41,200 nucleotides of DNA from a bacterium (lineage in GTDB: Bacteria; SM23-81; DAOVCL01), in contig JAOZPP010000020.1 of NCBI GenBank assembly GCA_029932675.1, forward strand, positions 1 through 41,200, written 5' to 3'. Each line of letters begins with the position of its first letter. The stretch's first letter is position 1. The position numbers were made by a program, and so were the translations under genes. The notes beneath the pieces were generated by a model, which was not told the DNA's origin, did no database searches, and saw only the letters and a program-made list of their open reading frames with translations. Positions 6,601 to 27,859 of this stretch are shown here, in pieces.

Positions 6601-7184
6601 AAACTCTTTAGGTGAAAATCCCTTTCCAAAAGATCGAAGGAGAGATCTTCAAGCTCTCCCTCAATTCTATTACCACTTAGAGAGATAAAAGGTAGGTTTA
6701 GGTTAATACCTATGAAGCTGAGATCTCCGTGGGCAGTCACAATCTTCAATTCCCCGTTATCAATGAAGAACCTTTGAATAAGCACTAAGGGAAATGCGGG
6801 GGGAGCGGGCGACGATGAAGTTTTCCTTCCCTCCTTGAGAATAATTCTGGGCTCCTTGAGAGAAACTTCTTTCACCCCTATCTTTTTGCCGCGTAGAAGA
6901 TCGATTAGCTTGTATTTAAATCGAATTTCCTTGATTTCAAGTGAAGAAGATGAGTAGCCTGGCAGATCGACCTCTCCTTTGATGCCCTCTAATTTAACTT
7001 CAGTAAAGAAATTACCTTTTATTTTCTCAACCTTTACTTTAAAAGGAAAGTTTTTCCTTTTGATCCAGGTGTTCACCCCATCCCTCAAAAGTGGGGTTTT
7101 TTGGAGGATGAGGTATAAACTAAGGAGAATTATTATCCCCCCACCTAAAATAAAAGCTAATGTTTTCAAGAAATGTTTAATCAT
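3690..7184 (-). CDS. tamB: TamB-like (DUF490/AsmA-related) translocation and assembly protein
   Basis: About 1164 residues. One N-terminal transmembrane anchor (LAFILGGGIIILLSLYLIL) is followed by a very long periplasmic region of alternating amphipathic beta segments with recurrent G-x-hydrophobic patterns. This is the layout of TamB/YhdP-type bridge proteins. The final 300 residues carry the conserved DUF490 core: GDLNLKRGEYFLYGSTFHISSG, then FNPRVEIEGKTEV, then PIISFDSVP and QEDILALLAV, ending in a barrel-like YLQYSRRLS. The family spans the periplasm and works with TamA/BamA in outer-membrane protein insertion or lipid transport. The following gene encodes an Omp85 protein, which supports this. 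ATG 7184 is chosen; a TTG at 7190 is also possible, and neither has a well-spaced ribosome binding site. It is the first gene of the operon. Confidence 0.9.
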   Translation of the reverse strand: MIKHFLKTLAFILGGGIIILLSLYLILQKTPLLRDGVNTWIKRKNFPFKVKVEKIKGNFFTEVKLEGIKGEVDLPGYSSSSLEIKEIRFKYKLIDLLRGKKIGVKEVSLKEPRIILKEGRKTSSSPAPPAFPLVLIQRFFIDNGELKIVTAHGDLSFIGINLNLPFISLSGNRIEGELEDLSFDLLERDFHLKSLRGKFSFSNDSLFLSNITLITGHSNLLADGWITKLKNPEFTLSISGNKLNLNEMDKLANLGGILSGTVITDFNARGKLGDFRGKAKVDGIFLGRKMEDFSFEYRWKENVLYLHNANGIYFRALMKGDGWLNFSTSPPTYFADLGLFGLDIDEVVNSPLTTDLSGNVKLEGKGLCVDDLAFDFQVDLRESKIQGIPIDTIRGKIFIDRNGMVFLPGFQAYLEGASAQWEGDIDFWGGINISGEIRAADLSSLEEIWLPHGWGGEPSAHFTLQGWIRDPHLRADLLIDSLSNDLFTVRRLRGEIDLSGIFSRREGKAWLKGDSIEVKGLKWKRGAAQLRFVGDSIDFDSLWVKGGESEFSLIGSLQREGGKDALQIKRLRGQYKGVNFFSEKPFKVFLLQDMVSFGEINLQTEEGTILCSGLWGKEGLNLSLRVDDLRPVSIWGSLLPQLDGLLTASLDLSVRSNQLSLSGKFEIKRGRWGKLEFQSLSSPICYKDSLLTLEGLEWRMKGGSYELSASIPFYISLQPPGVGLLDKRLNLNIKGKGKRFDLPLLWTDLVQKCKGDFLLWGKAEGPPNKLKLGGGLNIKSGELKVKGIENILTGLNLDLSLKQNILSINRMEIQSVGRKKGRGIFYQLWGALSGRGKEEVGHLRISGNIDLSKLTLPNFNLGIEVNRLSILLAEGMGECNLDGSLQLIGQRPPLLQGRILVHKLVYHLPLSWSLPQGKRELPLTLDLDLSFPQNLWIKNPQTSVELAGDLRVSSVRKELQVLGDLNLKRGEYFLYGSTFHISSGLISFEESPDFNPRVEIEGKTEVGDETILLTVKGTLKQPIISFDSVPHHYPQEDILALLAVHQTPVGIDTLGAKGTIAPRATDFFTSYLEHELEKEIAKSLQVETLQIKADREKELALGKIEITVGKYISNRVYLQYSRRLSMESGQEVGIDYRLSRLFSLQGVRDRKGLYRLSLNLKWTY

Positions 7185-7230
7185 CTCCAACTATGCTTAT
7201 CTAAAGTTTCTGAAAGGTTGCTCTTTCCGT

Positions 7231-7301
7231 AACCTGAATTATTCATAAAAAAGTGAGGCAGATGAGACTGGCCCGTGGGAAATTTATGAATAATTCGGGT
7301 C
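7231..7301. mobile_element. Short MITE-like element with about 18-bp terminal inverted repeats (copy 1)
   Basis: ACCTGAATTATTCATAAA at 7232-7249 is the reverse complement, with one mismatch, of TTTATGAATAATTCGGGT at 7283-7300. The 33-nt centre has no coding potential. The same terminal sequence bounds the element at 18477-18665, so this is a repeated family and not a local hairpin only. It lies upstream of the tamB operon in a 357-bp gene-free gap (7185-7541). The rest of that gap is AT-rich and holds only the promoter at 7405-7434. Confidence 0.6.
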
Positions 7302-7404
7302 AAAGCCTTAGACCAACTCTTCATAATTAATATAGGAGGAACTGTCAAAAGTCAAGCCAAATTACTTATCCGCAAAAGGAGGAAAATAAAAGTAGAGAAA
7401 GCAC

Positions 7405-10252: not shown

Positions 10253-12511
10253 TTACCTTACCAGAACCATCTTCGTCGTCGAGGTGAATCCACCAGCAGT
10301 GATCTTACAGAGATAGGTTCCACTGGCTACCCTCTGACCCTGTTCATTCCTCCCATCCCAAGTAGCGGTGTAGGTTCCAGCCAGTTTATATTCGTTGATC
10401 AAGGTCTTGACCAACTGTCCCCTGAGGTTGTATACCCGCAGGGTTACCTGGCAGTCCTCAGGCACGCCAAACTCCACTGTAGTGGATGGGTTAAATGGGT
10501 TAGGATAGTTCTGGCGTAACTGGTAGCCCTCTGGCATCAGTTGCTGCATCTGCTCCTCCTCTACACCCACGCATACCGGGAGGCAGGTTGGACTACCGTC
10601 ACAGGTAGGACCTGCGGCACAGGTAGGCATCCCCGGAGTGCAAGTAAGGGGCGCACAGGTAGCCGCCCCATTGCAGGTGGGGCCTCCCGCGCAGGTGAGG
10701 GCGACACAGGTCTGGTTGCCATCACAAGTTGGCTGTGCTGGGCTACAAGTGGGCATAGCCGGATCACAGGTGGGGTTGACAACATCACAAGTCGGCATTG
10801 GCCCTCCACAGGTCACATCCTGGCAGGTGAAGTTAGGGGCACAGGTCTCGCTACCGTCACAGGTAGGTGATGCCGGATCGCAGGTAGGCATACCTGGGTC
10901 ACAGGTCTCGTATAATCCACAAGTATAATTTTCATCGCAGGTAAGATAACCAGTGCAAGTTTCGCTGCCATCGCAAGTTTCGCTGCCATCACAGGTAGGC
11001 GATGCCGGATCGCAGGTAGGCATACCCGGATCACAGGTCAGATAGTCTGGATCACAGGTGATAGTCCCGTCGCAGGTAATCATACCGTAACAAGTGGAGT
11101 AAGGCGCACAGGTCTGAGCCCCATCACAGGTAGCTCTACCATCACAGGTGACCATATCCGGATCACAGGTCACACTGCCGTCGCAGGTGGGTTGCTGGGG
11201 ATCACAGGTGGGGCTGCCATCACAGGTCTCGGTCATATCACAGGTCTCGCTACCGTCACAGGTAGGGCCACCCTGGCAGGTATTGTAACCTGTGCAAGTC
11301 AAACTTGCGTCACAGGTCTGGGTCCCATCACAGGTGGGGGACATATCACAGGTCTGGCTGCCGTCACAGGTAGGGCCACCCTGGCAGGTGTTGTAACCTG
11401 TGCAAGTTGGACTGGTGTCACAGGTCTCCACCCCTTCGCAGGTTTCATTGGGAGCACAGGTTGCCGATCCATCACAGGTCTGGTAGTCCTGACAGGTCGG
11501 ACTAGCATCACAGGTCTCCATGCCATCACAGGTGAGGTAGGGGGTACAAGTAAGGGCCTCACCCATACAGGTATGACTCCCATCACAGGTCACCTCTGTC
11601 CCTAAGCAGGTCTCGGACTGATTGCAGGTCGGTGTGCCATTGCAGGTCGGATAGCCTGAACAGGTGTTAGAAAGTGCACAGGTCTCGGTGCCGTCGCAGG
11701 TTGAGCCTCCATCACAGGTCGGACAGCCCTGACAGGTGGGACTATATGCATCGCAAGTGGGGGCATACGGATCGCAGGTTAGCTCGAAATTGTCGCAGGT
11801 ATACATATTTGGATCACAAGTCTGAACCCCTCCTATACACGTTGGCTGGCCGGGCTCACAGGTAAAATGATACAGACAAGTGGGGCCGTTGCTGTCGCAG
11901 GTGGGCATCGATGGATCACAGGTCTCGTACGGAAGGGGTTGACAGGTCTCCGTCCCATCACAGGTAGGACTACCAGCTTGACAGGTGTAGTTGGGGGAAC
12001 AGGTCTGCCCCTGGAGACAGGTCTCTGAGGTCCATTCGCAGGTAGGCATCGGCTCACAAGTGGGGAGGTAGGGCTCACAGGTAAGTTGAGGAGGGTTATA
12101 GGTGAGATTCCTTGCACAAGTATACCCAGCGTTATCGCAGGTAAAACTTCCATCACAGGTGGGTGCACCCTGTATACAGGTGAGATTCGGAGCGCAGGTT
12201 GCTCCACCAGTGCAGGTCTCTGTCCCATCACAGGTCGCACCAGCATAGGTGGGATTAAGGGGAGCCGGGGGGCTCCTATCGCCCGAGCGGGACATCCGGC
12301 AGACTTTACCCTGATGGCCCCGATTCGCGTTCATAACTGGAGGGGTATGAATTTGCTGCTCCAGGTTTGCTTTAGCCAACTCCAGGGAATGCTGAAAGAG
12401 CGGGGAACTCACTACCCTTTCATCCTCAGTCCTCGCCATGGAAAAGAGAAGGAGAACTGCCATAAGTGCGGGCAACCAAAGGATTACCGCCTTGCCTTTA
12501 TCAATTTTCAC
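10253..12511 (-). CDS. Secreted Thr-Cys tandem-repeat protein with FlgD-like C-terminal domain; function unknown
   Basis: 752 residues. An N-terminal signal segment (AVILWLPALMAVLLLFSMA) and a short linker precede residues 90-647, which consist of 87 TC dipeptides at intervals of mostly 6 or 7 residues (units such as TCDGSET, TCDASP, TCTGYN, TCDPGMP). The protein has about 90 cysteines. From C328 to C436 the spacing is exactly 6 residues, 18 times running. The end (from about residue 663) is a FlgD-like sorting domain: RQNYPNPFNPSTTVEFGV, WDGRNEQGQRVASGTYLC, TKMVLVR. The start is GTG with a very strong AAGGAGGTGA about 9 nt upstream. I do not recognise a family. The 6-residue Thr-Cys spacing is like the disulfide beta-helix of Tenebrio antifreeze protein; this is an analogy, not demonstrated homology. 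No CxxCH haem motif is present. Confidence 0.88.
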   Translation of the reverse strand: MKIDKGKAVILWLPALMAVLLLFSMARTEDERVVSSPLFQHSLELAKANLEQQIHTPPVMNANRGHQGKVCRMSRSGDRSPPAPLNPTYAGATCDGTETCTGGATCAPNLTCIQGAPTCDGSFTCDNAGYTCARNLTYNPPQLTCEPYLPTCEPMPTCEWTSETCLQGQTCSPNYTCQAGSPTCDGTETCQPLPYETCDPSMPTCDSNGPTCLYHFTCEPGQPTCIGGVQTCDPNMYTCDNFELTCDPYAPTCDAYSPTCQGCPTCDGGSTCDGTETCALSNTCSGYPTCNGTPTCNQSETCLGTEVTCDGSHTCMGEALTCTPYLTCDGMETCDASPTCQDYQTCDGSATCAPNETCEGVETCDTSPTCTGYNTCQGGPTCDGSQTCDMSPTCDGTQTCDASLTCTGYNTCQGGPTCDGSETCDMTETCDGSPTCDPQQPTCDGSVTCDPDMVTCDGRATCDGAQTCAPYSTCYGMITCDGTITCDPDYLTCDPGMPTCDPASPTCDGSETCDGSETCTGYLTCDENYTCGLYETCDPGMPTCDPASPTCDGSETCAPNFTCQDVTCGGPMPTCDVVNPTCDPAMPTCSPAQPTCDGNQTCVALTCAGGPTCNGAATCAPLTCTPGMPTCAAGPTCDGSPTCLPVCVGVEEEQMQQLMPEGYQLRQNYPNPFNPSTTVEFGVPEDCQVTLRVYNLRGQLVKTLINEYKLAGTYTATWDGRNEQGQRVASGTYLCKITAGGFTSTTKMVLVR
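10571..12244 (-). repeat. Coding minisatellite: 18/21-bp units encoding Thr-Cys repeats
   Basis: The plus strand shows 'atcacaggt'-type units (ACCTGTGAT in the coding sense) about every 18 or 21 bp across 1.7 kb. Higher-order copies are visible. The block at 11345-11404 recurs almost identically at 11237-11296 (108-bp offset). The block at 10973-11035 recurs at 10841-10903 (132-bp offset), encoding the same 21 residues. This points to growth by tandem duplication. Confidence 0.9.
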
Positions 12512-12966: not shown

Positions 12967-15504
12967 CTACCTACCCCTATGACTTGGGATTAGATAAGGA
13001 AGTTGTAGCTTTCCGCCGAAGGATTTTATAGGGGGTTTTCCCTGATTCAGTCCCATTAACCTCCTGAAGATGAAGAACTCCATTTCATTGATCTTAATCT
13101 GCTCTGGAGTGGGGGTCACGCCAGTGTGGCCCATCGACCTGGTATTAAACAAAGAGGAATTGGCAAAAACCATAATCTTTCCCTTCCCCCATTCTTTCTC
13201 CACCAGAACTGCCCCTCCATTCCTTAACCGCAACACAGGGGTCCCTCCAGTCACTCGGCCGGGATTTCTGGCTGTGGCTACTACCCTTAGCGAATCGTCA
13301 TAAATTGGCAAGGTCCGCGGGGGGAGTAACCCAATCTCCAAGCCGAATAAGGTGAGGAGTTGGTTGGCTGTGGATCGGCGGTTTGTAGGGTCATCCAACA
13401 CCAGAACCCTACCTCCCCTTTCCACGTATTCGGAGACCAAATCTACATCTTGAATAGAAAAAGGCTTCTGGGGTTCGATTACCACTACAGCATCTCCCTC
13501 CCTAATGGCCCCATCCAATTTAGAATATGCTTTGGGCACGAATCCCAACCTCTGCGTCCAGACAAAGAAAGTATGAAAGTTGTTATCCTGATTGCTCCCT
13601 AGTCTGAGGGAGGGTATAAAAAAGTCAGAATGTTCCTGCTCAAAAGCGATCCTGGTGTATTTGGTATGGGGAGTTGGAATGGGGTAAAACTTATCGTAAT
13701 TAAGGAAGGAAACCACCCTGAGAGCTATAGGAGAGGCCATCATAATGCCACCCAAAAGGAAAAAGGCCAGGGTCTCCTTTGCCACCTTAGAGCCAGCACG
13801 GATCGATAAGTACCCACACAAAGCAAATAGGATGAAGAAGATCCAGTTGAGGAAAGAATACTTGTTTCTTCTATTCAACCATTCGATGGTTCCCAAGGCA
13901 AGTTCGGGTTTTCCTGGAATGAACATAAAGAAGTTGGAAAAAACAGTGCTGTCGGTGAATCCCACCACCCTTCCCCGGCCATACTTTCTGGCCACGGCCT
14001 GCAGGAAAAGTCCAAAATCATAATCCTTGTAACTCTGTCCTTTGGCTGGGAAGAAGCTCCTCTGGGAGTAGTCCAAGGGTAAAGTCCGCAGCTTATTGCC
14101 CACAATCACCCCTTGGGCAAGCAGTGATGCACCTATAGTGCACGAGGTGGCAAAGAGAAAGGGGGGCATATGGGCCACAATGGGATGGGGCAAGACTCCT
14201 GGCCGTCTGTAGACGGAAAGGGCGGAAGTAGCGAGGTCATAGGTAGAGTCGAATCTGAAGTGGAAACCGAACAGACGGGCAAGCTGGTTTAAGTAACCGC
14301 TGGAACCGAAAACATTGGTGTGGTCACCAATTAAGTAGAGACCACCTCCCGCGCGAACGAAGTCCCTGATGGCGGCAATTTCCTCTTGGAGGAGGGCTTC
14401 CGTAGGGGTTTTGATGATCAAAACATCGTAGTTGCTGAGGAGTTCTTTGGTCAATTTCTCATGGCCTCGGCTAATTTTGTAATAGTAGCCCAGAAATTCG
14501 GCTAAACAATAATAATTATAACCCGATTTTCGCCCATACCACTTGGTGTCGAACTCCTGTTCGGTCCACTCCCAATCACTATGGAATTCATCAATTAATA
14601 CTCTTCCGGCCTTCTTCTCCCCTGGATCTTGAAAACCGAAAGCAAAGAGGAAAAAGAAAGTGCTCAGAAAAGCTAGGCCAAAAACTGAGACATACTTTAA
14701 GGGAGTGACTTCCCCAAGGGTTAAGGTCAAGTTGGTTTTAGCTGCCGGTATCCATCTGGCCAGGAGGAGAAAAAGGGGGAGGAATGTGACCATTGTAACA
14801 AGAGGAGACCAATAACAATTTAACCGATTAGTGGAAAGCACAACAAGAATCAGAAAGATGTGACGAACGAGGGGGAAGACAACCAATAGAGAGGCAAGGA
14901 TGAGCAAACTTCTTCTCCAGGATTTGGAGAGGAAGAGTAGAACAAATCCACCGATAAGGGTGAGAATGACGAGCAGGAGGCCAAGTCTCTGCCAAGTGGT
15001 GATGAAGTAGAAGATATCAACCACCCGAGGGACATATATGATGCCTTGGTTAAGATAGGCATTAACTCCAATCAGCTTCAGTCCTCTACAGACTAAGGGA
15101 GCAAGGACATCAACCCGATGATAACGAGATCCCAGGATGTAGTATAAGGAAATGGCCAAATTCTGAAAGAAAAGTATGACTCCACTAAAAAAGAGTCCAA
15201 GGAGAAGCGATGTAATTCGCCTAAAATACCGCCTCAAAGGGGAAAGGGCAAGACTGGCCAAGATAAGCAGACTTCCCAGATTATGAGGAAAGGGGAGGAG
15301 GAAGATAAACAGGAGAAGGGGAATACCTAACAGGTAGTGCTTCACCGAAGGGGTAGACGCTTTTGCCCGCCAAAAGGCGAATGTGTTGAAAAGAATTCCA
15401 CCTATGAGACACGGTATCCAATACCCAGATGCATCTGCAAAGATAGGCAAGGTGAATAACCAGGTTGAGGAAAGTAAAAAAAGACCAATCCAGAGAAGGT
15501 TCAT
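12967..15504 (-). CDS. Membrane protein with exosortase-like region (no catalytic Cys) fused to two amidotransferase-like domains (paralogue 2)
   Basis: 845 residues. Residues 1-290 are a multi-pass membrane region. Within it LIGVNAYLNQGIIYVP (144-159), then a hydrophobic run, SKSWRRSLLILASLLVVFPL and VRHIFLIL follow the order of exosortase/EpsH proteins. However, the place of the catalytic CSG motif reads FITTWQRL, so the cysteine is absent. Residues 298-530 form a Rossmann/class-I amidotransferase-like domain (YDVLIIKTP, IRDFVRAGGGLYLIGDHT, GRGRVVGFTDST). Two membrane segments (551-600) and a second similar domain (615-820; VSEYVERGGRVLVLDD, GKGKIMVFANSS) complete it. The first domain resembles DUF4350/GIFT-type non-enzymatic folds; no catalytic Cys-His pair is evident. 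It shares its whole architecture with the gene upstream, 100 nt away on the same strand. Function unknown. Confidence 0.82.
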   Translation of the reverse strand: MNLLWIGLFLLSSTWLFTLPIFADASGYWIPCLIGGILFNTFAFWRAKASTPSVKHYLLGIPLLLFIFLLPFPHNLGSLLILASLALSPLRRYFRRITSLLLGLFFSGVILFFQNLAISLYYILGSRYHRVDVLAPLVCRGLKLIGVNAYLNQGIIYVPRVVDIFYFITTWQRLGLLLVILTLIGGFVLLFLSKSWRRSLLILASLLVVFPLVRHIFLILVVLSTNRLNCYWSPLVTMVTFLPLFLLLARWIPAAKTNLTLTLGEVTPLKYVSVFGLAFLSTFFFLFAFGFQDPGEKKAGRVLIDEFHSDWEWTEQEFDTKWYGRKSGYNYYCLAEFLGYYYKISRGHEKLTKELLSNYDVLIIKTPTEALLQEEIAAIRDFVRAGGGLYLIGDHTNVFGSSGYLNQLARLFGFHFRFDSTYDLATSALSVYRRPGVLPHPIVAHMPPFLFATSCTIGASLLAQGVIVGNKLRTLPLDYSQRSFFPAKGQSYKDYDFGLFLQAVARKYGRGRVVGFTDSTVFSNFFMFIPGKPELALGTIEWLNRRNKYSFLNWIFFILFALCGYLSIRAGSKVAKETLAFFLLGGIMMASPIALRVVSFLNYDKFYPIPTPHTKYTRIAFEQEHSDFFIPSLRLGSNQDNNFHTFFVWTQRLGFVPKAYSKLDGAIREGDAVVVIEPQKPFSIQDVDLVSEYVERGGRVLVLDDPTNRRSTANQLLTLFGLEIGLLPPRTLPIYDDSLRVVATARNPGRVTGGTPVLRLRNGGAVLVEKEWGKGKIMVFANSSLFNTRSMGHTGVTPTPEQIKINEMEFFIFRRLMGLNQGKPPIKSFGGKLQLPYLIPSHRGR

Positions 15505-15604
15505 CTCTTATAATCCTCTGTTTACACTACACATAAGAACTAATTTTTTAAGCCCACCAGGCGGTGAGGCCAACCGAAGCCGGGGAGAAACTCTGGCCCT
15601 TCAG

Positions 15605-18022
15605 TTATATTTTTGTTCGGATGAGAAAATCATTCCCCGTTTTAAAATCCCTTCGGCTTCCAGCCCCTCGCTTCTCCCCCTTTACCTTCCTTTCTATGAG
15701 CTCCTTAATGAACATAATGTTGCCTAGGTGATAGGTCTTCCTCCCCTCCAGATTTTCGTTGAAGAAGAAATGGGAGTCAGCGACCAGAAAGACCCCTCCC
15801 GCGCCTATCCGTTTGTAAACCATAACCGGATATCCCCACCTTTTGGCAATAACCTCTACCTGGGTAGTGTCTGCCCTGATGGGGTAGACACAGTGGAACC
15901 TCACCTTTTGACCATAAGCGAGGGACTCTCCCGGCCCTAAGGGAACATCTTCGATATCCAGGTTAAAGTGCTGGAGCAGCTTCCAGGAGGGCAACCTCTC
16001 CTCCCAACCAATGCTAAGCATCAAAAAACCGCCAGCGTCAACATATCCATCTATAGCCTTGATCTCCTTAGCAGAAAATGGCTTCATCGGGGAAAAGAGG
16101 ACGAATATTTTGCTTTCGGGAAGCCTTTTAGAAGAAAATTGACTTATCATCAGCGGGAAAAAACCGTTTCTCATCAGGTTATATTCAAATCCACCTACTG
16201 ACTTATCCTGCCAGCTCATCAGGTCGAACAATTCCCCATGAGAGCGATCGATGTGGGCGATGTTTCCGGTAAGTCTTACCCCCTCCCAACCACGTCCATA
16301 GAGGTAGTCTGAAATCGGGGACACAACCAGTAAGAGGGTTCCCCCGGCCATGAGAGCAACGCTTGCTGGGGAAAGAAAGAGGGCAAAAATAGCCCCTAAA
16401 AAGAGAAGCAACGATATAAGTAAACGGTGCTTACTCAAGAAATCAGAACTTTCTTCTTTGGTCAGCCAATCGAAGACCCGATCCACAAAATCATGGCTCT
16501 TCACTAATGCCCCATTTTGAAATGGAGAGGTATCGCCAAAGACCATCACTTTCCCTTTGCCGTATTTGGCTTCAGCTACAAGGATGACATCTCCGAGTCG
16601 CTCACCGGGGCTATATCTTCTGTCGCCCAAAAAGGCACCTTTGGTGTTGAAAAGGTTGCCCATATCAGAAAAAGCATATCTTCCCACAATCACTGGTTTG
16701 GCTGGATGGTGAATGGAGAGGGAGGCTCCAATCCAAACCTGAACTTGGCTTTCATCCCCGATCCCATAGTTGATGGGGTGCTTAAAGAACTCCATAGTAT
16801 TGATCCACGCCCGCCTATTATTCTGAGCACAATCAAAATTGAACTCAATTTTCACCGGCCTCAACAACCTATTAAATGGATCTCGGATCCCCTTCACCGC
16901 CGTATGGTCACCCAAGGCGAGGAGAGAACCACCTTTGGCCACAAAATCCCAAATAATTTTGCTCTCCTCCTCACTAAACCTCTCCATTAGATTTATAACT
17001 ACCAAGGTGCTCGCCTCTCTTAGGCCCTCCTCGCTAATTAAGGCCTTCTTGACTTTATAACCCCTCATTTCCAAGTATTTGGGGAGATAGCCAAACATAC
17101 CTCCGCTTCTGTCGCCATAATAACCAAAAACTGGTGTCCGCCAATTGAGGTAGCCTTTGTCATAAAGGAGAATTTCCCCAGTATTCGTCCCTTGAGATTG
17201 AGGCATTACCAGGAGGATCAAAGAGAGTATAAGTAATCCAAAGCCGATTAAAGGCTTAGTTTTGGAACTGGAGAAGAGAGGGACCCTCTTCACTGGAGTT
17301 CTTCTGAAATAGAAATATGTAGGCAGACAGGCAAGAAGGAAGAAAATAATCTGCGAATGGAGATGAGTAATCTCTCTTGCTTTAACGAATTTCAGCAAAA
17401 GCGTAGCAAGAGGAAAATGGATGACAATATAGGCAACCTCAGCGAAGAGGATAGACAAGAGGAGAATCGCAGGCAACCAAAGGTTCTTCCTTCTCTCAGA
17501 AAGAAGAAACAGTGATAGATAGAAAAAAGCAAAGAGCAAGAGGATATGAACCCCCGCAGCGTTGCTTCCTAAGAGGAGCCCCCTGCCCAGCAGGATATCT
17601 GCACATCTGGAGAGGAACAGGGCAACCTCTTGCTCCATCTGCCATATTTGGGGGATATATTGATAAGCGAAGATGAAGAATGCGAACAAAACGGATGTGA
17701 GCAGCAATACCGGAAGCTCACCTTCATATCTATCATTTCCTCTAAGGGTAAGGTCAAAGAAGAAAAGGAAAAAGGGGAAAGCCATCAGTCGAGGGATCGT
17801 TCCCCAGCTCGGGAGGAGGGTAGCTGCGATAAAAGCCAAAGCAGCCAAAATCCCCCTCCAAAGATTCTTTCTTCTCAATCTAAAGGGAAGATAGGTAAAA
17901 ACAAAGCCTGCTAAAAGGAGGAGGATAAATAGATTATTGAATTCATACCTTAGGTTTCCAAGGTCGTTAGTAAGAAGCAGAAGGGCCAACAACAGTATGG
18001 GAATTCTGATAAACCTTTTCAA
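15605..18022 (-). CDS. Membrane protein with degenerate exosortase-like region fused to two amidotransferase-like domains (paralogue 1)
   Basis: 805 residues from TTG 18022. The multi-pass N-terminal half includes LLLGSNAAGVHILLLF at the position of the exosortase CSG motif (no Cys) and ITHLHSQIIFFLLACLP resembling the His-containing last helix. A soluble domain follows (about residues 285-525: LVVINLMERFSEEES, FVAKGGSLLALGDHT, GKGKVMVFGDTSPF). Then comes a membrane hairpin (about 532-572) and a second domain (about 610-785: IDGYVDAGGFLMLSIGW, GAGGVFLVADSHFF). An ATG at 18046 lies inside the -10 box TATAAT of a strong promoter, so it cannot be the start of that transcript. TTG 18022 with AAGGGGG 5 nt upstream fits. 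It is the first gene of the two-gene unit with its downstream paralogue. Confidence 0.82.
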   Translation of the reverse strand: MKRFIRIPILLLALLLLTNDLGNLRYEFNNLFILLLLAGFVFTYLPFRLRRKNLWRGILAALAFIAATLLPSWGTIPRLMAFPFFLFFFDLTLRGNDRYEGELPVLLLTSVLFAFFIFAYQYIPQIWQMEQEVALFLSRCADILLGRGLLLGSNAAGVHILLLFAFFYLSLFLLSERRKNLWLPAILLLSILFAEVAYIVIHFPLATLLLKFVKAREITHLHSQIIFFLLACLPTYFYFRRTPVKRVPLFSSSKTKPLIGFGLLILSLILLVMPQSQGTNTGEILLYDKGYLNWRTPVFGYYGDRSGGMFGYLPKYLEMRGYKVKKALISEEGLREASTLVVINLMERFSEEESKIIWDFVAKGGSLLALGDHTAVKGIRDPFNRLLRPVKIEFNFDCAQNNRRAWINTMEFFKHPINYGIGDESQVQVWIGASLSIHHPAKPVIVGRYAFSDMGNLFNTKGAFLGDRRYSPGERLGDVILVAEAKYGKGKVMVFGDTSPFQNGALVKSHDFVDRVFDWLTKEESSDFLSKHRLLISLLLFLGAIFALFLSPASVALMAGGTLLLVVSPISDYLYGRGWEGVRLTGNIAHIDRSHGELFDLMSWQDKSVGGFEYNLMRNGFFPLMISQFSSKRLPESKIFVLFSPMKPFSAKEIKAIDGYVDAGGFLMLSIGWEERLPSWKLLQHFNLDIEDVPLGPGESLAYGQKVRFHCVYPIRADTTQVEVIAKRWGYPVMVYKRIGAGGVFLVADSHFFFNENLEGRKTYHLGNIMFIKELIERKVKGEKRGAGSRRDFKTGNDFLIRTKI

Positions 18023-18044
18023 ATGTTCCCCCTTTGACCTGCCC

Positions 18045-18072
18045 ATTATAACCCTTTTTCCACAAAAGTCAA
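18045..18072 (-). promoter_or_regulatory. Strong sigma70-type promoter for the paired membrane-protein genes
   Basis: TTGACT (18072-18067), a 16-nt spacer and a perfect TATAAT (18050-18045). The transcript should begin near 18038, leaving a leader of about 15 nt before TTG 18022. Confidence 0.75.
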
Positions 18073-18478: not shown

Positions 18479-18665
18479 CCCGGATTATTCACAAATTCAC
18501 AGCACCTCTCAAATCGCTGAGGCCTCTTGCTGGAGGGACTCCGCCTTAGCGGAGTCCTGAGGAAGCGGACAGACATAAATGTCTGTCCCTACGAAACAAA
18601 TACACAAATCATTGGCCTTGAAAAATTTATGCCAATTCATTTTCAGTTCATGAATAATTCGGGTT
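18477..18665. mobile_element. MITE-like element with terminal inverted repeats (copy 2), about 189 bp
   Basis: The left end AACCCGGATTATTCACAAA matches the reverse complement of the right end (AACCCGAATTATTCATGAA) at 16 of 19 positions. These termini match those of the element at 7231-7301. No transposase is encoded; the interior carries two perfect hairpins (18536-18588). The right end abuts the ribosome binding site of the gene at 18685. No convincing target-site duplication is seen. Confidence 0.6.
18536..18588. repeat. Two REP-like palindromes inside the element
   Basis: GGACTCCGC/GCGGAGTCC (18536-18557, loop CTTA) and GGACAGACA/TGTCTGTCC (18567-18588, loop TAAA) are both perfect 9-bp stems. 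The second, followed by CTACG, resembles dispersed intergenic palindromes found in many environmental bacterial genomes. Confidence 0.6.
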
Positions 18666-18684
18666 GAAATTAAAAGGAGAAAAA

Positions 18685-21600
18685 ATGAACAAGTTCAAAT
18701 TTGTGGGGCTGTTGGCTTTGGTGGGGGTTATTCTTTATGTTGGCTTGGGAATGGGGCAAGAATTGAAGATTTCCCCTTTGGCCAAGGGTGTCGGTCGGTC
18801 CATGACACTACAGGAGGATACGCTATGGTATTTCAAAGCCTGCTATGACTCCAACTATGCTCCCGCCGGTATGCCAGACTTCGATCAGAAGCAGGATAAC
18901 TGGACCAATCCTACTTCTGGAAAGTGGTCTTTCTGCGGACCAACAGCTTTGGCCAATTGCCTTTGGTGGCTTGACTCCAGGTTTGAGCATTGGTTGGCCA
19001 GGGTCAACGGAGGCCCACTTGGGCTTCCCGGCGACCAATATGACAGGTTCCCGTTGGTAAGGGATTATACCGACAACTTGGCTCAGGCCTATATCCCACC
19101 CAATCCTCCCCCAGGCACGAACAACGACGATCACGCTGCGGACAACGTGGACAATCCCAACACCACACCGTGGTCTCTATGGCCCCCAGGTGCTCCTCCT
19201 GGGCCGTATAATCCATTTGCCCCAGGTCTACAACCTATTCCGCAGTACCCCCAATGGGGTGAGCTTATTGAGAGGCTGGCATGGTGCTGCAACTGTGACG
19301 GGGCACAACAGGGAGGTGGTTGGGAGGGGACTTATGTCCACGATATGGAAAACTGCATAGACAATTGGCTGATGGCCGAGGGTCTGGATACACTCCTCTA
19401 TGAGCACACCGTAGATTGCAGCTGCTATTATGACCTCCCTTGGTTTATTGATGAGCAGATCCACAAGAGCCAAGATGTTATCCTCCTCCTGGGCTTCTGG
19501 TATAACGAAGGAGAGGTTTGGTATAGAGAGGGTGGCCACTATGTAACCGTTGCCGGTGTAGGCACGGATCCACTGGGCGGAACGATTCTGGCAATTTCTG
19601 ATCCATATTATGACAATGCTGAACCTGCTCCCCAAGGAAACGGAGGTCCCGGCTGCGTCCACAATTCCATCTATCAGGCTCATCCAACCCCCCATCCTGC
19701 TTCCCTCCACAATGATGCCGGCAATGCCTCTCACGATTGGTATGCTCTCGCCCCTACCGCGCCCCCTCATTGGGCATATCATTGGATGCTCGTAGGTTAT
19801 CCTGGCCAATACAAGTGGGATAACTTCTTCGGGCAGAACGTTCCCAAGGGGCTAGAAAAATATCAGGATGTTAAAAGAGAGCACAAGAACAAACAGGGGT
19901 TTTTTACGCTCATCGAATATGCGGTGGTCGTCTCTCCCTATCCTGACCACGGCGATGCTCCAGCCCCCTATCCCGATGCCCATCATTCTGACTGGACTGA
20001 GGAATGGCTGGGCGCAAAGGTAAGTGGTGATATGGCGCCCCGCTTAGTGAACCTGGATACTTATGACGACGGGGTAACCTTCCTTACCCCTCTCTGCCCC
20101 GGTGAAGAGGGAAGCCTTAAAGTAACCATCTCGGTGAGGGACAGGTTTGCCTGCGAGGCTCACGGCGGGCGCTATGATGGTCAGCATCAGCTCTATCTCC
20201 ACGGCTGGATAGACTGGAGCGGAGACGGGAACTGGGATGATCCGGGTGAGAACATCTTCTGTGGCGTCCCATTTGACCCTTCAACCTGGGCTTCTAACAG
20301 CAATATCTATATCACTACTTTCACCGTTCCTACTGATGCCCAGATTGGCGACACCTGGGCCAGGTTCAGGTTGGATTATAATCAAAGCCTAAATGATCCG
20401 GCGGGACAAGCCTATTGTGGTGAGGTGGAAGATTATCCCGTGGAGATAATGGAGAAGCAATCATCTGTGGTTATTAACGAGTTTATTGCCAAAGGGACTG
20501 AGTGGATAGAGCTTTACAACTACGGCGCCTGCCCGGTGACGATGACCGGTTGGTATGTGCAGGATGACGGCGGGACCGACAACTCCATCAGCGGTGTTAC
20601 CATACCTGCCGGCGGCTACTACTCCTGGAACACCACCCTAAACCTCGGCACCAGCGGGGATTACATAGAGCTCTACGACGGCAGCAAGGCTCTCATTGAC
20701 CGAGTGGCTTATGGCAACAAAGGTGGATGCCCACTTCCTCCATATGGCTCAAATATTTCGGCATGTCGGGCTCCCAATGGATCAGACACTGATGATGATG
20801 CCAGGGACTGGACCCTGGATCGTTCATCCACTCGGGATGCGGCCAATGACGCCCCAGCGCCTCAATTGGGTTCCTCCTTGATCCTCAACGAGATCGACCC
20901 TTATCCTTCTGCCGACGGTGACTCCCTGGAACTCTACAACCCCACTGGTTCAGCAGTGGATATCACCAATTGGTGGTTCTCCGATGGAGATGATATCATT
21001 GACCTACCCAGCGGAGGGACAGTCCCTGCAGGAGGATGGTTAGTCCTGGCTGAGGGCTCTGGCGATTGGCCCGATGGCCAGTGTGATTTCTCCAGTGGTG
21101 ATGTGGCTTATCTCTTCAATGCCAGTGGAGTGAGGGTTGACCAGTTAGGCTGGTATGGAGAATACAACGACCACTCCTTCCAGAGGTGTCCGGATGGGAA
21201 CGGTCCAAACGACGGTTACGATTGGACATCTTCCGGTGGGGACACAAGCCTCTTTGACACCACCGCCACCTGGGGAGCAGCCAACTGCGTCTACTGTGAG
21301 CCCCCCCAGCCTCCCTCAAATCTCATCTGTGAGGCAACTGATACCTGTATTGTCCTAAATTGGACAAACACATCGGAGTATGACAGCGTTGCCGTATACA
21401 GAAGTTGGGGTGGAGTTTCGGAAATGCTCTTAGTGATTCTACCAGGAGGTTCAGAGAGTTACCACGATGCCACCTGTTGTTGCAGCGGCAACTACGACTA
21501 CCATGTGACCGGTTTTCATTGTGACGAGGAGAGTGGGCCAAGCGATACCTGTTGGGTCTATAAACTGGGCGAGGTCCAATATTCTTGGGACTTCAACGAG

Positions 21601-23181
21601 AGCGACCAGGGTTGGATGCACTATCCAGATCCCCCTGGAGTGGACTCCTGGCAATGGGGTATGCCCACATACGGGCCTGAGCCGGGAATGCCAACCTGTC
21701 CCGACACAGGAGGAACTCCCGTGCCCCTGACCAACTGCTGGGCTACCATTAGCCAAGGTCCGTACTCGCCCTTCTCCTGCTGTCGCCTGTTCTCGCCCCC
21801 TGTCCAGCTCGATAGCTGTGGTGCTCTCTTAGAGATCTGTCACTGGTATGCGATGACACCTGAACCTCCGGATGGTGGAAATGTCAAGGTTTCCACCGAT
21901 GATGGAGTGACCTGGGAGCTGATTACACCCTGTCAAGGCTATCCTTGCCCGTTTCTGGACACCGAGTGCGATAAGATAGTTGGTCTGCCCGGTTACTCCG
22001 GAATGAGCCCTGGTTGGGTGCTTGACTACTTCGATCTCGCTGCACTGGGTTATGGTGACTCCACCGTTCAGATAGCCTTCGACTTCGGCTCAAATGACAA
22101 CCCCGATGCGTGGCCAGGGTGGTATATCAAATGGGCCAAGATCTACCATTGTCCGGTAGTTGGAGGAGCATTCATCAGGGGTGACTATGACGAGAACGGG
22201 CAATTATTGACCAATGACCCTCTGATGGAATTGCAATTTATCTTTGGTGTCCCTGGTGCCACTCCGCCGTCTTGTGAGGATGCTGCCGACTATGATGATG
22301 ACGGTAAAATTTTGACCAATGATCCACTGATGGCTTTGCAATTTATCTTTGGGGTCCCAGGTTCTGTCCCTCCTCCACCTCCCTATGGTCCATTCCCAGG
22401 CGGCTGTGGGCCGGATCCAACCGATGATGACTTGACTTGCGCAGACCATGCTTGTCAACATTTGAAAGCTACGCCTTCTTATAAGCCTTCTGTAAGTGTG
22501 TCTAATGCCCCTAACAAGCTGTTGCTGGAAGAAGCTGAGTTTATTAATGGCAAAGTAAGGGTTCCCTTTGACCTGACAATTAATGAGCCTGTATGTGGTT
22601 TTGACATTTCAGTTACCTATAATACTTCTTCCTTACGGTTTGAGAAGGTTGTTGGTGGAGATGGGTATGACTTCTGGGCTGTGGACACTCGTCAGGCAGG
22701 TGTAGTGCGGATAGGAGGGGTACCTGATATAGAGATGGCCAAGCTGCTGGAGCCTGGAACGTACAGAGTTGGTGAAATGATGTTTGAGGTAAAGGAGATG
22801 GGTAATATGGGTCTGAGGTGGAAGAAGGCAGAAGTGTATGGAGCTCAAGTACAGCCTCTGTCTGTAGAGTGGGTAGTAAAAACTGGGGAAAGCATATTGC
22901 CTACCCAGTTTGCCTTAGAGCAGAACTATCCTAACCCATTCAATCTGCAGACAGCGATCAGGTATCAGCTCCCCGAGGATTGCCGGGTGACCCTGGAAAT
23001 TTACAACTTACTGGGAGAGAAGGTGAAAACCCTGATCAGCGGCGAGCAGAAGGCCAACTACTACACTGCCTATTGGGATGGAAAGGATGCAGAAGGCAAG
23101 GAAATCTCCAGTGGAATCTACTTCTACAAACTTCAGGCTGGCAGCTTTACTCAGACCAGAAAGCTAGTCATCCTCAAGTAG
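18685..23181 (+). CDS. Giant secreted multidomain protein: C39-like cysteine-peptidase fold, GEVED, two lamin-tail domains, dockerin, cohesin-like and FlgD-like sorting domain
   Basis: 1498 residues. After a signal peptide (FKFVGLLALVGVILYVGLG) comes a C39/papain-like module with FCGPTALANCLWWL (Cys about 84), GGHYVTVAGVG (His about 285) and AISDPYYDN (Asp about 306). A GEVED domain ends near residue 585 (YCGEVEDYPVEI). Two lamin-tail domains (INEFIAKGTEWIELYN; LNEIDPYPSADGDSLELYN) span about 592-870, then an Fn3-like stretch and a jelly-roll-like region (about 965-1158). A type-I-dockerin-like pair of calcium loops (GDYDENGQLLTND; ADYDDDGKILTND; 1162-1228), a cohesin-like beta region (about 1268-1395) and the FlgD-like end (EQNYPNPFNLQTAIRYQL, tail RKLVILK) complete it. 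ATG 18685 follows AGGAGA; an in-frame TTG at 18664 lies in the mobile element and is rejected. Peptidase activity is inferred from the residue order. Confidence 0.88.
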   Translation: MNKFKFVGLLALVGVILYVGLGMGQELKISPLAKGVGRSMTLQEDTLWYFKACYDSNYAPAGMPDFDQKQDNWTNPTSGKWSFCGPTALANCLWWLDSRFEHWLARVNGGPLGLPGDQYDRFPLVRDYTDNLAQAYIPPNPPPGTNNDDHAADNVDNPNTTPWSLWPPGAPPGPYNPFAPGLQPIPQYPQWGELIERLAWCCNCDGAQQGGGWEGTYVHDMENCIDNWLMAEGLDTLLYEHTVDCSCYYDLPWFIDEQIHKSQDVILLLGFWYNEGEVWYREGGHYVTVAGVGTDPLGGTILAISDPYYDNAEPAPQGNGGPGCVHNSIYQAHPTPHPASLHNDAGNASHDWYALAPTAPPHWAYHWMLVGYPGQYKWDNFFGQNVPKGLEKYQDVKREHKNKQGFFTLIEYAVVVSPYPDHGDAPAPYPDAHHSDWTEEWLGAKVSGDMAPRLVNLDTYDDGVTFLTPLCPGEEGSLKVTISVRDRFACEAHGGRYDGQHQLYLHGWIDWSGDGNWDDPGENIFCGVPFDPSTWASNSNIYITTFTVPTDAQIGDTWARFRLDYNQSLNDPAGQAYCGEVEDYPVEIMEKQSSVVINEFIAKGTEWIELYNYGACPVTMTGWYVQDDGGTDNSISGVTIPAGGYYSWNTTLNLGTSGDYIELYDGSKALIDRVAYGNKGGCPLPPYGSNISACRAPNGSDTDDDARDWTLDRSSTRDAANDAPAPQLGSSLILNEIDPYPSADGDSLELYNPTGSAVDITNWWFSDGDDIIDLPSGGTVPAGGWLVLAEGSGDWPDGQCDFSSGDVAYLFNASGVRVDQLGWYGEYNDHSFQRCPDGNGPNDGYDWTSSGGDTSLFDTTATWGAANCVYCEPPQPPSNLICEATDTCIVLNWTNTSEYDSVAVYRSWGGVSEMLLVILPGGSESYHDATCCCSGNYDYHVTGFHCDEESGPSDTCWVYKLGEVQYSWDFNESDQGWMHYPDPPGVDSWQWGMPTYGPEPGMPTCPDTGGTPVPLTNCWATISQGPYSPFSCCRLFSPPVQLDSCGALLEICHWYAMTPEPPDGGNVKVSTDDGVTWELITPCQGYPCPFLDTECDKIVGLPGYSGMSPGWVLDYFDLAALGYGDSTVQIAFDFGSNDNPDAWPGWYIKWAKIYHCPVVGGAFIRGDYDENGQLLTNDPLMELQFIFGVPGATPPSCEDAADYDDDGKILTNDPLMALQFIFGVPGSVPPPPPYGPFPGGCGPDPTDDDLTCADHACQHLKATPSYKPSVSVSNAPNKLLLEEAEFINGKVRVPFDLTINEPVCGFDISVTYNTSSLRFEKVVGGDGYDFWAVDTRQAGVVRIGGVPDIEMAKLLEPGTYRVGEMMFEVKEMGNMGLRWKKAEVYGAQVQPLSVEWVVKTGESILPTQFALEQNYPNPFNLQTAIRYQLPEDCRVTLEIYNLLGEKVKTLISGEQKANYYTAYWDGKDAEGKEISSGIYFYKLQAGSFTQTRKLVILK

Positions 23182-23198
23182 GAGAGACTAAGATCTCT

Positions 23199-23238
23199 AA
23201 GCTAGTGGGGGGCGGAGGAATTCGCCCCCCACTAGCTT
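23199..23238 (+). terminator. Long perfect hairpin after the first giant gene
   Basis: A 16-bp perfect stem, AAGCTAGTGGGGGGCG / CGCCCCCCACTAGCTT, with an 8-nt loop, 17 nt after the stop. There is no T-run after it, so it may terminate inefficiently or protect the mRNA end. Confidence 0.6.
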
Positions 23239-23299
23239 CATCTCATCAGGAATCGTCTTAGAGGAAATGAGGATTCCAATTGATTAGGAGATGATGGTG

Positions 23300-26200
23300 A
23301 TGGAAAAATCACAAAAATTGTTAGCTTACTTGAGTATAGGTTTACTAGTAACAATCCCCTTTTTTACCAGTTCCACGCTGAAGGCAGATAACCTAACCAT
23401 AACGCTCAATGCTGGTGAGTATCGGATTATCAATGTGGATAAAGGGCAAGATATAATTAAAATGAATGGTTTCAGTAACCTCTTGGTCCCTGGTAAACCT
23501 ATGCTGCCGGCAAAGGGATTTATGATAGCCCTTCCTCCTGGGGCAGAGGTTTCTTCAGTCATTACTATAGGCACAAGTCCTGTTGAAATTAAAGGAATCC
23601 ACAAGATAAAACCAGCACCACCCTTTTTGCCCTCCAACAACCGGAAAGACACAGTCAAAAAATGCCTGCAAGAATGGCAGCAAAACTACGATGCTACCTA
23701 TTCTTCAGATCAGATCTACCCCCAGGATGTGGGGAAATATTTGGGAGTCGGAGGTTTGAGGAAATATACCTTTGTCAGGGTGGCATACTTTCCTTTCTCC
23801 TATCGCCCCAAATCGGGCAGGCTAACTTTTAATCCCTCCCTCATAGTCTCCATTGATTATAACTTTCCCTCATCAGGTAGCAAAGAAGTAGAGCGATTGC
23901 TGTCAGATACGATGGCAGACGATCGAGCTTCCCGGCTGTTTGTCAATTATTCCCAGGCAAAGACCTGGTATACTCCTGAGAAAGGGGAAGCCCCAAAACA
24001 AAGTTACGATTATGTAATCATCACCACAGAGACTCTGCAGGATGCAGTGAATCCGTTCGCCTCTTGGAAACAGGCGATAGGTTATAGGGTTAATGTGGTC
24101 ACCCCTTCCTGGATAGAAGCCAACTACTCTGGAGTTGACCTACAAGAGAAGATAAGAAATTTCCTCATCGATAAGTATCCCCAATCCCAATGGGGGATCG
24201 AATATGTCCTCTTAGTTGGTGACATCGACGCGGTCCCTATGCGCTACTGTTATCCAGACCCATCTGATCACGATCCAAGTTCGGATTACTGCACACCCAC
24301 GGACTATTACTACGCCGACCTCACTGGAGACTGGGATTCAGACGGGGACGGATATTACGGGGAGTATGGGGAAGATAACGTCGATTTTGTTCCCGAAGTC
24401 CATGTTGGGCGAATCCCCTGGAGTGACCCCACCACCGTGACTTCTATTTGTCAAAAATTGGTTAACTTTGAAAATGACAACTCCTCCTGGAAGAATAATG
24501 CCTTACTCCTGGGTGCAATGAGCAACTATGCCAATGAAGACTCTTCAGAATGGGACAGAACTGATGGGGCAAACCTAATGGAGGAAATGATCTCCGATAT
24601 GCCCACCGGTTGGAGTTACACCAAGATGTATGAAAAGGCGGGACTTAACCCTTGCCCATATTCTTGTGACTATCCTATTACCCATGCCAATGTGGTGAAC
24701 GACTGGTCGTCAAATGATTACGGTATCGTCAACTGGTGGGCCCACGGTGGCCAGACCGGTGCTTGGAGGAAATGGTGGGCCTGGGATGATGGGGATGGAG
24801 TACCAGAAACTGAGAGCCCGGACGAGATAAGCTGGCAGGCATTTATCAGTAACTCAGACGTCTCCTCCTTGGATGATGATCACCCTTCCTTGATCTTTTC
24901 CTGCTCCTGCAACAACGGCTGGCCAGAGGTGGACAATCTGGGTAAGGAACTCCTGAAACATGGATCGTCTGGAATAGTGACCTCCACCAGGATCTCCTGG
25001 TATACAATTGGTTGGTTAGATGAAAGCTGGGGGGGGAATGCCTCCATCGATTACTACTTCTTTCACTATCTGATCACTAACGATGAGAAAGTTGGGGATG
25101 CCCTTTTTGATTCCAAAGTTTACTATCTCAATAACTTCTTCTGGTGGGGGGAGGCGAGTCAACAAAATATGTTTGACTTTTGCCTCTATGGTGACCCGGC
25201 ATTAAAGAGAGGAGGGGTTCCATCAGCGGATCTGTTTATCCGAGGTGATGCCAACTGTGACGGGAGGGCAGATATCTCAGATGTAGTCTACAATCTCAAC
25301 TCGTTCTTTGGCTTTCTCCCCTCTCCTCCTTGTATGGACGCAGCAGATGCCAATGATGACGGACAATGGAACATTCCTGATGGCTTTACTCTATATCTCT
25401 CTCAATTTGAAGGCTACCCACCACCACCACCACCTTATCCTTATCCCGGTCCTGACCCAACTGAAGATGAACTCACCTGTCCTGGTGGATGCCCTTATCC
25501 TCCTGATACTACCGTCTCACCCTCAGATACTTTTATGATAGTAGATACACAAAGATTACAAGGGGATAGCACCTCTTCCTTCATAATACTCGGAACCTCA
25601 CATTTGAATAATGCGGGTTACTCTATAGGCTTTTGTTTTAACCCCTCACAGTTAAGAGTGGATAGTGTGGATATACTTTTCAATTATTCAGGACAGGATA
25701 ATGCGATATGGAACAATGAGGAGGGCTGGTGCAAAATAGGTGCCTTTGCCATTGTTGGGGTATACAATTATAACCCTCCCTTCGCCCATAAACCCTTGGC
25801 TACCGTTTACACTACCATCTCGCCCAACGTGGCTATGGAAGAGACCCTCTGGCTCGATTTAAAGAACGGTTGTGGAGGGATTACTAACCTCTTTTCCGAT
25901 GAAGTTGGAAATTCTACCCTTGCTACCCTTATAGATGGCCGAATCCTTCCCCCACATTTCGCGTTCCAAACCCAACCCACTTTCCCTTTGGCAATGGCGG
26001 AAAAAGAAACTCTGGCGATTATCGTCATAGCTAATGATTTCTTATCTCAAAATTTCACCTTGAATGTGAAGGCACATCCCCCTAATTTCTTTTCCTGGAC
26101 TGGACCGGTATTTAGCACAACGGGGACTGCAGTCGGAACCCTAACCGTCATCCCTCATAAGGGTGATAAAGGAGTATATTACCCTTCTTTTTATCTCAGT

Positions 26201-27730: not shown

Positions 27731-27748
27731 AAGGGAGCCCTTGTCACA

Positions 27749-27785
27749 CAAGGGGGGGTGAAAGGAATTTTTTCACCCCCCCTTG
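27749..27785 (+). terminator. Hairpin terminator after the C25 peptidase gene
   Basis: A 14-bp perfect stem, CAAGGGGGGGTGAA / TTCACCCCCCCTTG, followed by TTTCG. A second smaller hairpin (CCCTTGT/ACAAGGG) overlaps its left arm. Confidence 0.7.
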
Positions 27786-27859
27786 TTTCGTTAAGAAAGC
27801 AGTTAAATCCATTTTCTGTCTGCTTCCATCGAGCTCTCACCTATTCAAGGAGGAGAATT

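Follow-up and report, generated by a model that had tools for sequence, protein, structure and literature searches.

A conserved gene pair that joins cysteine-less, exosortase-related membrane cores to GIFT domains often lies beside genes for secreted cysteine-repeat and leader-bearing proteins

The window, a stretch of 41,200 nucleotides of bacterial DNA, carries two tandem minus-strand genes, P2 and P1, which are separated by 100 bp and encode proteins that are 28% identical (Table 1). Both open reading frames lie where the initial annotation had placed tandem paralogues, and the end it gave for the upstream gene, 18022, is a plausible TTG start with the Shine-Dalgarno-like AAAGGGGGA in front. 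The shared order that it had proposed, namely, a multi-pass region followed by two GATase-like domains with a membrane hairpin between them, was borne out for both proteins by Pfam and hydropathy and, for P1, by an AlphaFold2 (AF2) model with the same domain order (alignment of 62 sequences, mean pLDDT 92.2). From the charged loops, both soluble domains of P1 are predicted to be outside the cytoplasm, and the model contains no sizeable cytoplasmic domain.

Table 1. Features of the gene pair and the neighbouring client gene in the window
Feature	Position	Strand	Remarks
P2, upstream gene of the pair	15605..18046	(-)	813 aa from ATG; 805 aa from TTG at 18022
P2 exosortase-like membrane domain, about residues 8-287	17186..18025	(-)	hydropathy; hhalign score 34.7, decoys at most 16.9
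P2 A163-A164-G165, site of exosortase CSG	17552..17560	(-)	family motif [TS]-A-S-G
P2 first GIFT/DUF4350 domain, about residues 300-530	16457..17149	(-)	Pfam DUF4350 at 323-515
P2 membrane hairpin, about residues 536-580	16307..16441	(-)	hydropathy
P2 second GIFT-like domain, about residues 590-790	15677..16279	(-)	Pfam IFT52_GIFT at 636-680
P1, downstream gene of the pair	12967..15504	(-)	845 aa
P1 exosortase-like membrane domain, residues 1-290	14635..15504	(-)	hhalign of residues 134-227 with exosortase core; AF2 helices and strands
P1 R173-L174-G175, site of exosortase CSG	14980..14988	(-)	preceding position 172 mostly Glu in relatives
P1 Arg214, site of exosortase N..R arginine	14863..14865	(-)	invariant in 62/62 P1-like proteins
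P1 first GIFT domain, residues 298-546	13867..14613	(-)	IFT52 structure match
P1 membrane hairpin, residues 551-606	13687..13854	(-)	AF2 and hydropathy; basic loop predicted cytoplasmic
P1 second GIFT-like domain, residues 618-816	13057..13653	(-)	IFT52 profile match; AF2
Client, secreted cysteine-repeat protein, 752 aa	10253..12511	(-)	GTG start, AAAGGAGGTG upstream; 455 bp after P1
Client leader, residues 36-55, SPLFQHSLELAKANLEQQIH	12347..12406	(-)	predicted helix directly after signal peptide; SPLF type
Client TCDGxx-type cysteine repeats	10526..12250	(-)	repeat spacing
Client C-terminal FlgD-Ig/type IX secretion sorting domain, residues 669-749	10265..10507	(-)	TIGR04183 (Por_Secre_tail) 38.8 bits, cut-off 23

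The best functional clue to the pair is the gene that follows it, which the initial annotation had left out and which encodes a secreted protein that we refer to as a client. This protein contains 92 cysteines, and 80 of their spacings are of 6 or 7, compared with at most 23 in shuffled sequences. AF2 left the repeats unmodelled (pLDDT about 30) and gave better scores only for the signal peptide, the leader helix and the C-terminal domain. Elsewhere in the window (18664-30373), three more large secreted proteins with type IX secretion (T9SS) tails are encoded divergently from the pair: an LTD/GEVED protein, a peptidase C25 with a beta-helix and a sortilin/Vps10-like protein.

The exosortase family has been described by its conserved Cys, Arg and His (PMC4343526). 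The window genome encodes one bona fide exosortase with a CSG site (L001, G000:C75:45883-46641), which adjoins an EpsI-like gene and a gene for a protein with a FlgD/T9SS-like tail. HMMER detected no match to PF09721 in P1, P2 and the 46 + 49 family members scanned (E 0.1); the resemblance of the pair to exosortases lies below single-sequence HMMER detection. An earlier profile of 8 exosortase sequences was suggestive only, with E-values of 0.018 and 0.0085 and reversed controls down to 0.029. The resemblance was settled by the use, after this thin profile, of 33 real exosortases together with matched decoys, that is, 60 versions with the exosortase columns permuted within hydropathy classes. 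In profile-profile alignments of 87 P1-like and 70 P2-like N-terminal regions, the P1 core scored 42.8 (decoy mean 12.3, maximum 20.0) and the P2 core 34.7 (mean 10.6, maximum 16.9), and none of the 60 decoys reached the real score in either case.

In the P1 alignment, GVNAYLNQGIIYVP falls on the exosortase hairpin; CSG is matched by an E-x-L-G segment, and the Arg of N..R by Arg214. The initial annotation had noted features of exosortase helices after GVNAYLNQGIIYVP, and this sequence does align with the segment just before the exosortase active site, where the model predicts strands. The strands within 150-168, the helix from 176 and the subsequent Arg214 helix succeed one another in a way consistent with the exosortase sequence pattern, which was the standard of comparison rather than an exosortase structure; a sequence search found no solved structure of the family. 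The exosortase His (H247 of L001) is outside the P1 profile alignment, and P1-like proteins have a conserved F/Y-W nearby at 231-232. For P2, the [TS]-A-S-G motif falls on CSG, and the positions aligned with the exosortase Arg are mostly Leu/Ile in P2-like proteins. The replacement of the CSG site, noted earlier for both window proteins, extends through the family, as no Cys occurs at 172-174 in 62 of 62 P1-like proteins or at 163 in 49 of 49 P2-like proteins. Because the nucleophilic Cys has been lost, exosortase-type cysteine chemistry is impossible for these cores. Judged by their profiles, both cores are exosortase relatives by descent and not members of the active family, in line with the earlier proposal of inactive exosortase relatives; an unrelated membrane family was not the outcome. 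We also considered the pair as a helper of the host's own exosortase and dropped this idea because two pair-bearing genomes, G138 and G275, lack any PF09721 exosortase.

The assignment of the soluble domains to DUF4350 and GIFT, likewise anticipated by the initial annotation, was confirmed by Pfam, with scores for P1 and P2 of 48.1 and 46.1 for DUF4350 (cut-off 30.4), and with scores for the pair of 35.7 and 42.8 for IFT52_GIFT (cut-off 27.2). Structure matches, which covered residues 298-826 of P1, placed the first domain on the IFT52 GIFT domain with Z 23.4 and an rmsd of 2.2 over 207 residues; it also superposed on site-1 protease, with Z 19.4, and on OST48, with Z up to 19.0. The second domain matched IFT52 (5fmr) by sequence profile (E 1.2e-8, profile positions 667-753). 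GIFT is a docking module in the IFT52 and OST48 complexes, which act in ciliary transport and N-glycosylation, respectively.

A scan of 84,980 species genomes yielded 131 relatives, and the best 80 of these 131 were examined. A P2-like gene adjoins the P1-like gene in 70 of the 80 loci, one of which has the two genes the other way round; of the 10 loci that lack an adjacent P2-like gene, 5 lie at contig ends. Such P1-like genes without an adjacent partner are found in L057, L074, L081 and L092, and SPLF cysteine-repeat clients still lie beside the lone gene in L057 and L081. In a tree of 40 pairs, the P1-like and P2-like proteins formed two clean clades (support 1.0); therefore, the duplication is old and not local, and we dropped a recent tandem duplication of the pair as an explanation. 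Among the best 80 of 131, the archaeal carriers are Thermoplasmata and other Euryarchaeota, and the bacterial carriers include Desulfobacterota, Planctomycetota, Eisenbacteria, Latescibacterota, Zixibacteria, KSB1, Bacillota, Verrucomicrobiota, Polyangium, Methylobacterium and others, according to record titles, whose precision may be limited where MAGs are concerned. Named isolates are represented by Methylobacterium nonmethylotrophicum, Desulfonema magnum and Polyangium. The window's phylum is represented by only four genomes, and none of the other three carries the pair; no relatives were found on plasmids or, in a single-protein scan, on viral contigs, and NCBIfam has no model for the pair. 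No third conserved enzyme recurs near the pair across loci outside the Thermoplasmata synteny. In 10 Thermoplasmata loci, the archaeal clients are followed downstream by a conserved 361-aa protein of unassigned family (L055:15276-16361). Genome G160 carries short tandem repeats in the DNA immediately before its P2-like gene, and every frame read through them contains stops (L040:12800-13208).

Cysteine-repeat proteins were found beside the pair in the neighbourhoods of the first homologues read. Overall, 38 ORFs with at least 7 regular cysteines were located within 2 kb of the pair, 34 of them on its strand, compared with 5 at greater distances, where 2.4 times more sequence was covered (binomial 8e-16), and the control loci retrieved without the cysteine-repeat query gave 0 matches in this count. 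Leader-bearing ORFs numbered 48 near the pair and 7 far from it; these loci were also the source of the search expression, but the contrast between near and far is internal. The link to exported proteins is thus stronger than could be seen when it was first suggested from the window. In a search of approximately 280 genomes, TCDG-type proteins were present in 3 of 6 other pair-bearing genomes versus 1 of 273 without the pair, this one being weak.

Bacterial clients contain runs of evenly spaced cysteines, in repeats of the types TCDGxx, ETxCPxV, STCGST, CxGSx, TMNPMDxxC, TFDPNDxxC and CTTDPxW, and often possess an N-terminal ‘SPLF + helix’ leader. Most Thermoplasmata loci encode, just downstream of the pair, up to 3 copies of a protein of about 220 residues with the leader SPLFAVRTQRSL and a hydrophobic C-terminal segment. 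Most of these archaeal clients have the same leader as those of bacteria on a different body, without cysteine repeats; short cysteine-containing versions occur in the archaeal locus L062. Clients encoded away from the pair in G160 and G275 keep the leader. Neither the SPLF leader nor the cysteine repeats are universal: SPLF is missing from the Planctomycete clients and from some Desulfobacterota clients, and cysteine repeats from most Thermoplasmata clients. About a third or more of the loci have no client nearby, many of these being cut by contig ends. The C-termini vary among a type IX tail (window), SLH domains (L108), a TTWG tail or neither. The linkage of the pair to secreted client proteins is new here, and neighbourhood linkage is not the same as function.

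The initial annotation had offered a sensor, a scaffold or a transporter for exported proteins as possible roles. We tentatively favour, at a little short of an even chance, the reading that P1 and P2 form a complex of exosortase descent that is not catalytic and that serves in the docking and maturation of these exported proteins. P2 and P1 would each be one subunit of this dedicated and probably non-catalytic assembly, which would sit in the cytoplasmic membrane, and each would supply a Cys-less exosortase-fold core and, facing outward, two docking domains of GIFT/GATase-like type. This putative heteromer would receive a special class of exported proteins and recognise them, at least partly, through the short ‘SPLF + amphipathic helix’ that follows the signal peptide. 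The body of the held client, which in bacteria mostly consists of tandem cysteine repeats, would then mature, with disulfide or thiol chemistry as the likeliest step, before the client is released to the surface by the route of its host, such as the type IX tail in the window or the SLH domains in L108.

This reading is favoured over its main rival, catalysis by the pair, because the leader is modular and occurs fused to a DsbA-like domain. In Desulfonema magnum, just after the pair, the SPLF leader precedes a DsbA-like thioredoxin domain with CVHC (L085:12977-13753, Thioredoxin_4 E 5e-23), and this gene is followed by one for a separate long cysteine-repeat protein without a leader. The fusion suggests that thiol chemistry happens at the complex. 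Such chemistry would also be consistent with the client sequences. A few loci have neighbours that are CcmH-like or contain CAPC, but these are weak Pfam matches (CcmH E 0.024, Omp28 E 0.013) and carry little weight in this reading. A broader picture, which we regard as possible but doubtful, is an as yet undescribed maturation pathway common to bacteria and archaea in which a heteromeric pseudo-exosortase with four GIFT domains docks exports by their N-terminal SPLF helix and in which bacteria build a novel cysteine-ladder surface material.

Strongly conserved polar residues in the pocket of the core and in the first GIFT domain could, however, mean catalysis. One form of this rival is a re-invented active site in P1, in which Glu at 172, Arg214, His129 and Gln114 would cleave or transfer the client, for example, beside SPLF. 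Arg214 is accompanied by His129 in 55, Gln114 in 54 and Glu at 172 in 47 of the 62 P1-like proteins, and the leader sits just after the signal peptide. However, the nucleophilic Cys is lost in all, the window P1 itself has Gln at 172, P2-like proteins lack the Cys and apparently also the Arg, and not every client has SPLF, so that we consider this form unlikely.

In another form, P1, P2 or both would have a first GIFT domain that is itself an amidotransferase- or ThuA-like enzyme and modifies the clients, which would then be new extracytoplasmically modified peptides. The invariant residues of P1-like proteins in the 62-sequence alignment include W311, E312, K365, E375, H395, T396, D419, H440, D518, S519 and T520, and a ligand or active site in the first domain of P1 is therefore possible. 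H381, T382, D405, D461, E482, D505 and T506 are invariant in the first domain of P2, and R626, D757 and E767 in its second. The pentad-type clients L121, L118 and L109 share CxGSx repeat composition with the ‘Cys-every-fifth’ RiPP CefA (NF038108), L121 scoring best with 25.3 bits against a cut-off of 30, but this match may reflect repeat composition only. The window client is unmatched, and in contrast to CefA, the clients have signal peptides and, elsewhere, other repeat types. The closest solved folds, IFT52 and OST48, are not known to be enzymes, and no modification enzyme family recurs near the pair across loci, which makes an enzymatic GIFT domain quite improbable.

It is more doubtful still that the pair acts like GldG, as a component of export or motility machinery, and drives transport of the clients and not their maturation. 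The soluble domains match the GldG/ABC_transp_aux/DUF4350 Pfam families above cut-off; however, against the GldG model itself (TIGR03521), the pair scores only 22.8 and 10.3 bits with a cut-off of 389.85, and the membrane part differs. An ABC ATPase is near the pair in 5 loci only, no transporter partner recurs widely, and the window client has its own T9SS tail. An envelope sensor that is merely co-regulated with surface-protein genes would suit large outside domains on a multi-pass core but is highly improbable given the lack of a sizeable cytoplasmic domain in P1, of any regulator family recurring nearby across loci, and the leader common to clients of bacteria and archaea.

Relatives are known for each of the folds that make up the pair, and what is new is the system as a whole; we found no description of it in the CC-licensed literature searched, which is an incomplete sample. 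With exosortases and archaeosortases (EpsH, ArtA; PF09721), the pair shares the core related by profile, the order of hairpin, site and Arg helix, and the link to exported proteins. It differs from them in the missing catalytic Cys, in P2 also the apparent loss of the Arg, in the two added GIFT domains and in the pairing of the genes. Moreover, its clients have an N-terminal SPLF segment or cysteine repeats and no recognised CTERM tail, and the pair also occurs in genomes without any exosortase. IFT52 and OST48 have the fold of the first P1 domain; unlike the pair, they belong to eukaryotic complexes and have a single GIFT module without an exosortase-like core. The window client resembles type IX secretion cargo (TIGR04183) in its sorting domain, whereas other clients have different C-termini and the pair is also present in archaea.

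Three uncharacterised elements come together here in one testable system: a branch of the exosortase superfamily that has been inactivated, GIFT domains, and secreted proteins in which evenly spaced cysteines can number in the dozens. Should the leader be a docking tag, it would permit genome-wide prediction of clients, as CTERM tails did for exosortases, and would mark a new route of envelope-protein maturation in bacteria and archaea, named isolates included.

Several minor observations were made in individual loci. Small membrane-anchored CcmH-like proteins with several cysteines are encoded after P1 in L096 (7370-7723) and in L076, L077, L079 and L040 (approximately 7000-7400). In the client of the second G138 pair (L036:4310, also L105), the SPLF leader contains an in-frame TGA, where the homologue L117 has an Arg codon; this may be a pseudogene, a sequencing error or recoding. 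In Eisenbacteria-like genomes, TTWGxxK ends clients and other secreted proteins (L035:7203 and 19498, L037:4700, L061:7453 and L069:7427) and is possibly a C-terminal tag. The corresponding DNA pattern was counted 8 times in G138 and 10 times in G275 versus 2 in G000, 1 in G054 and 0 in backward controls.
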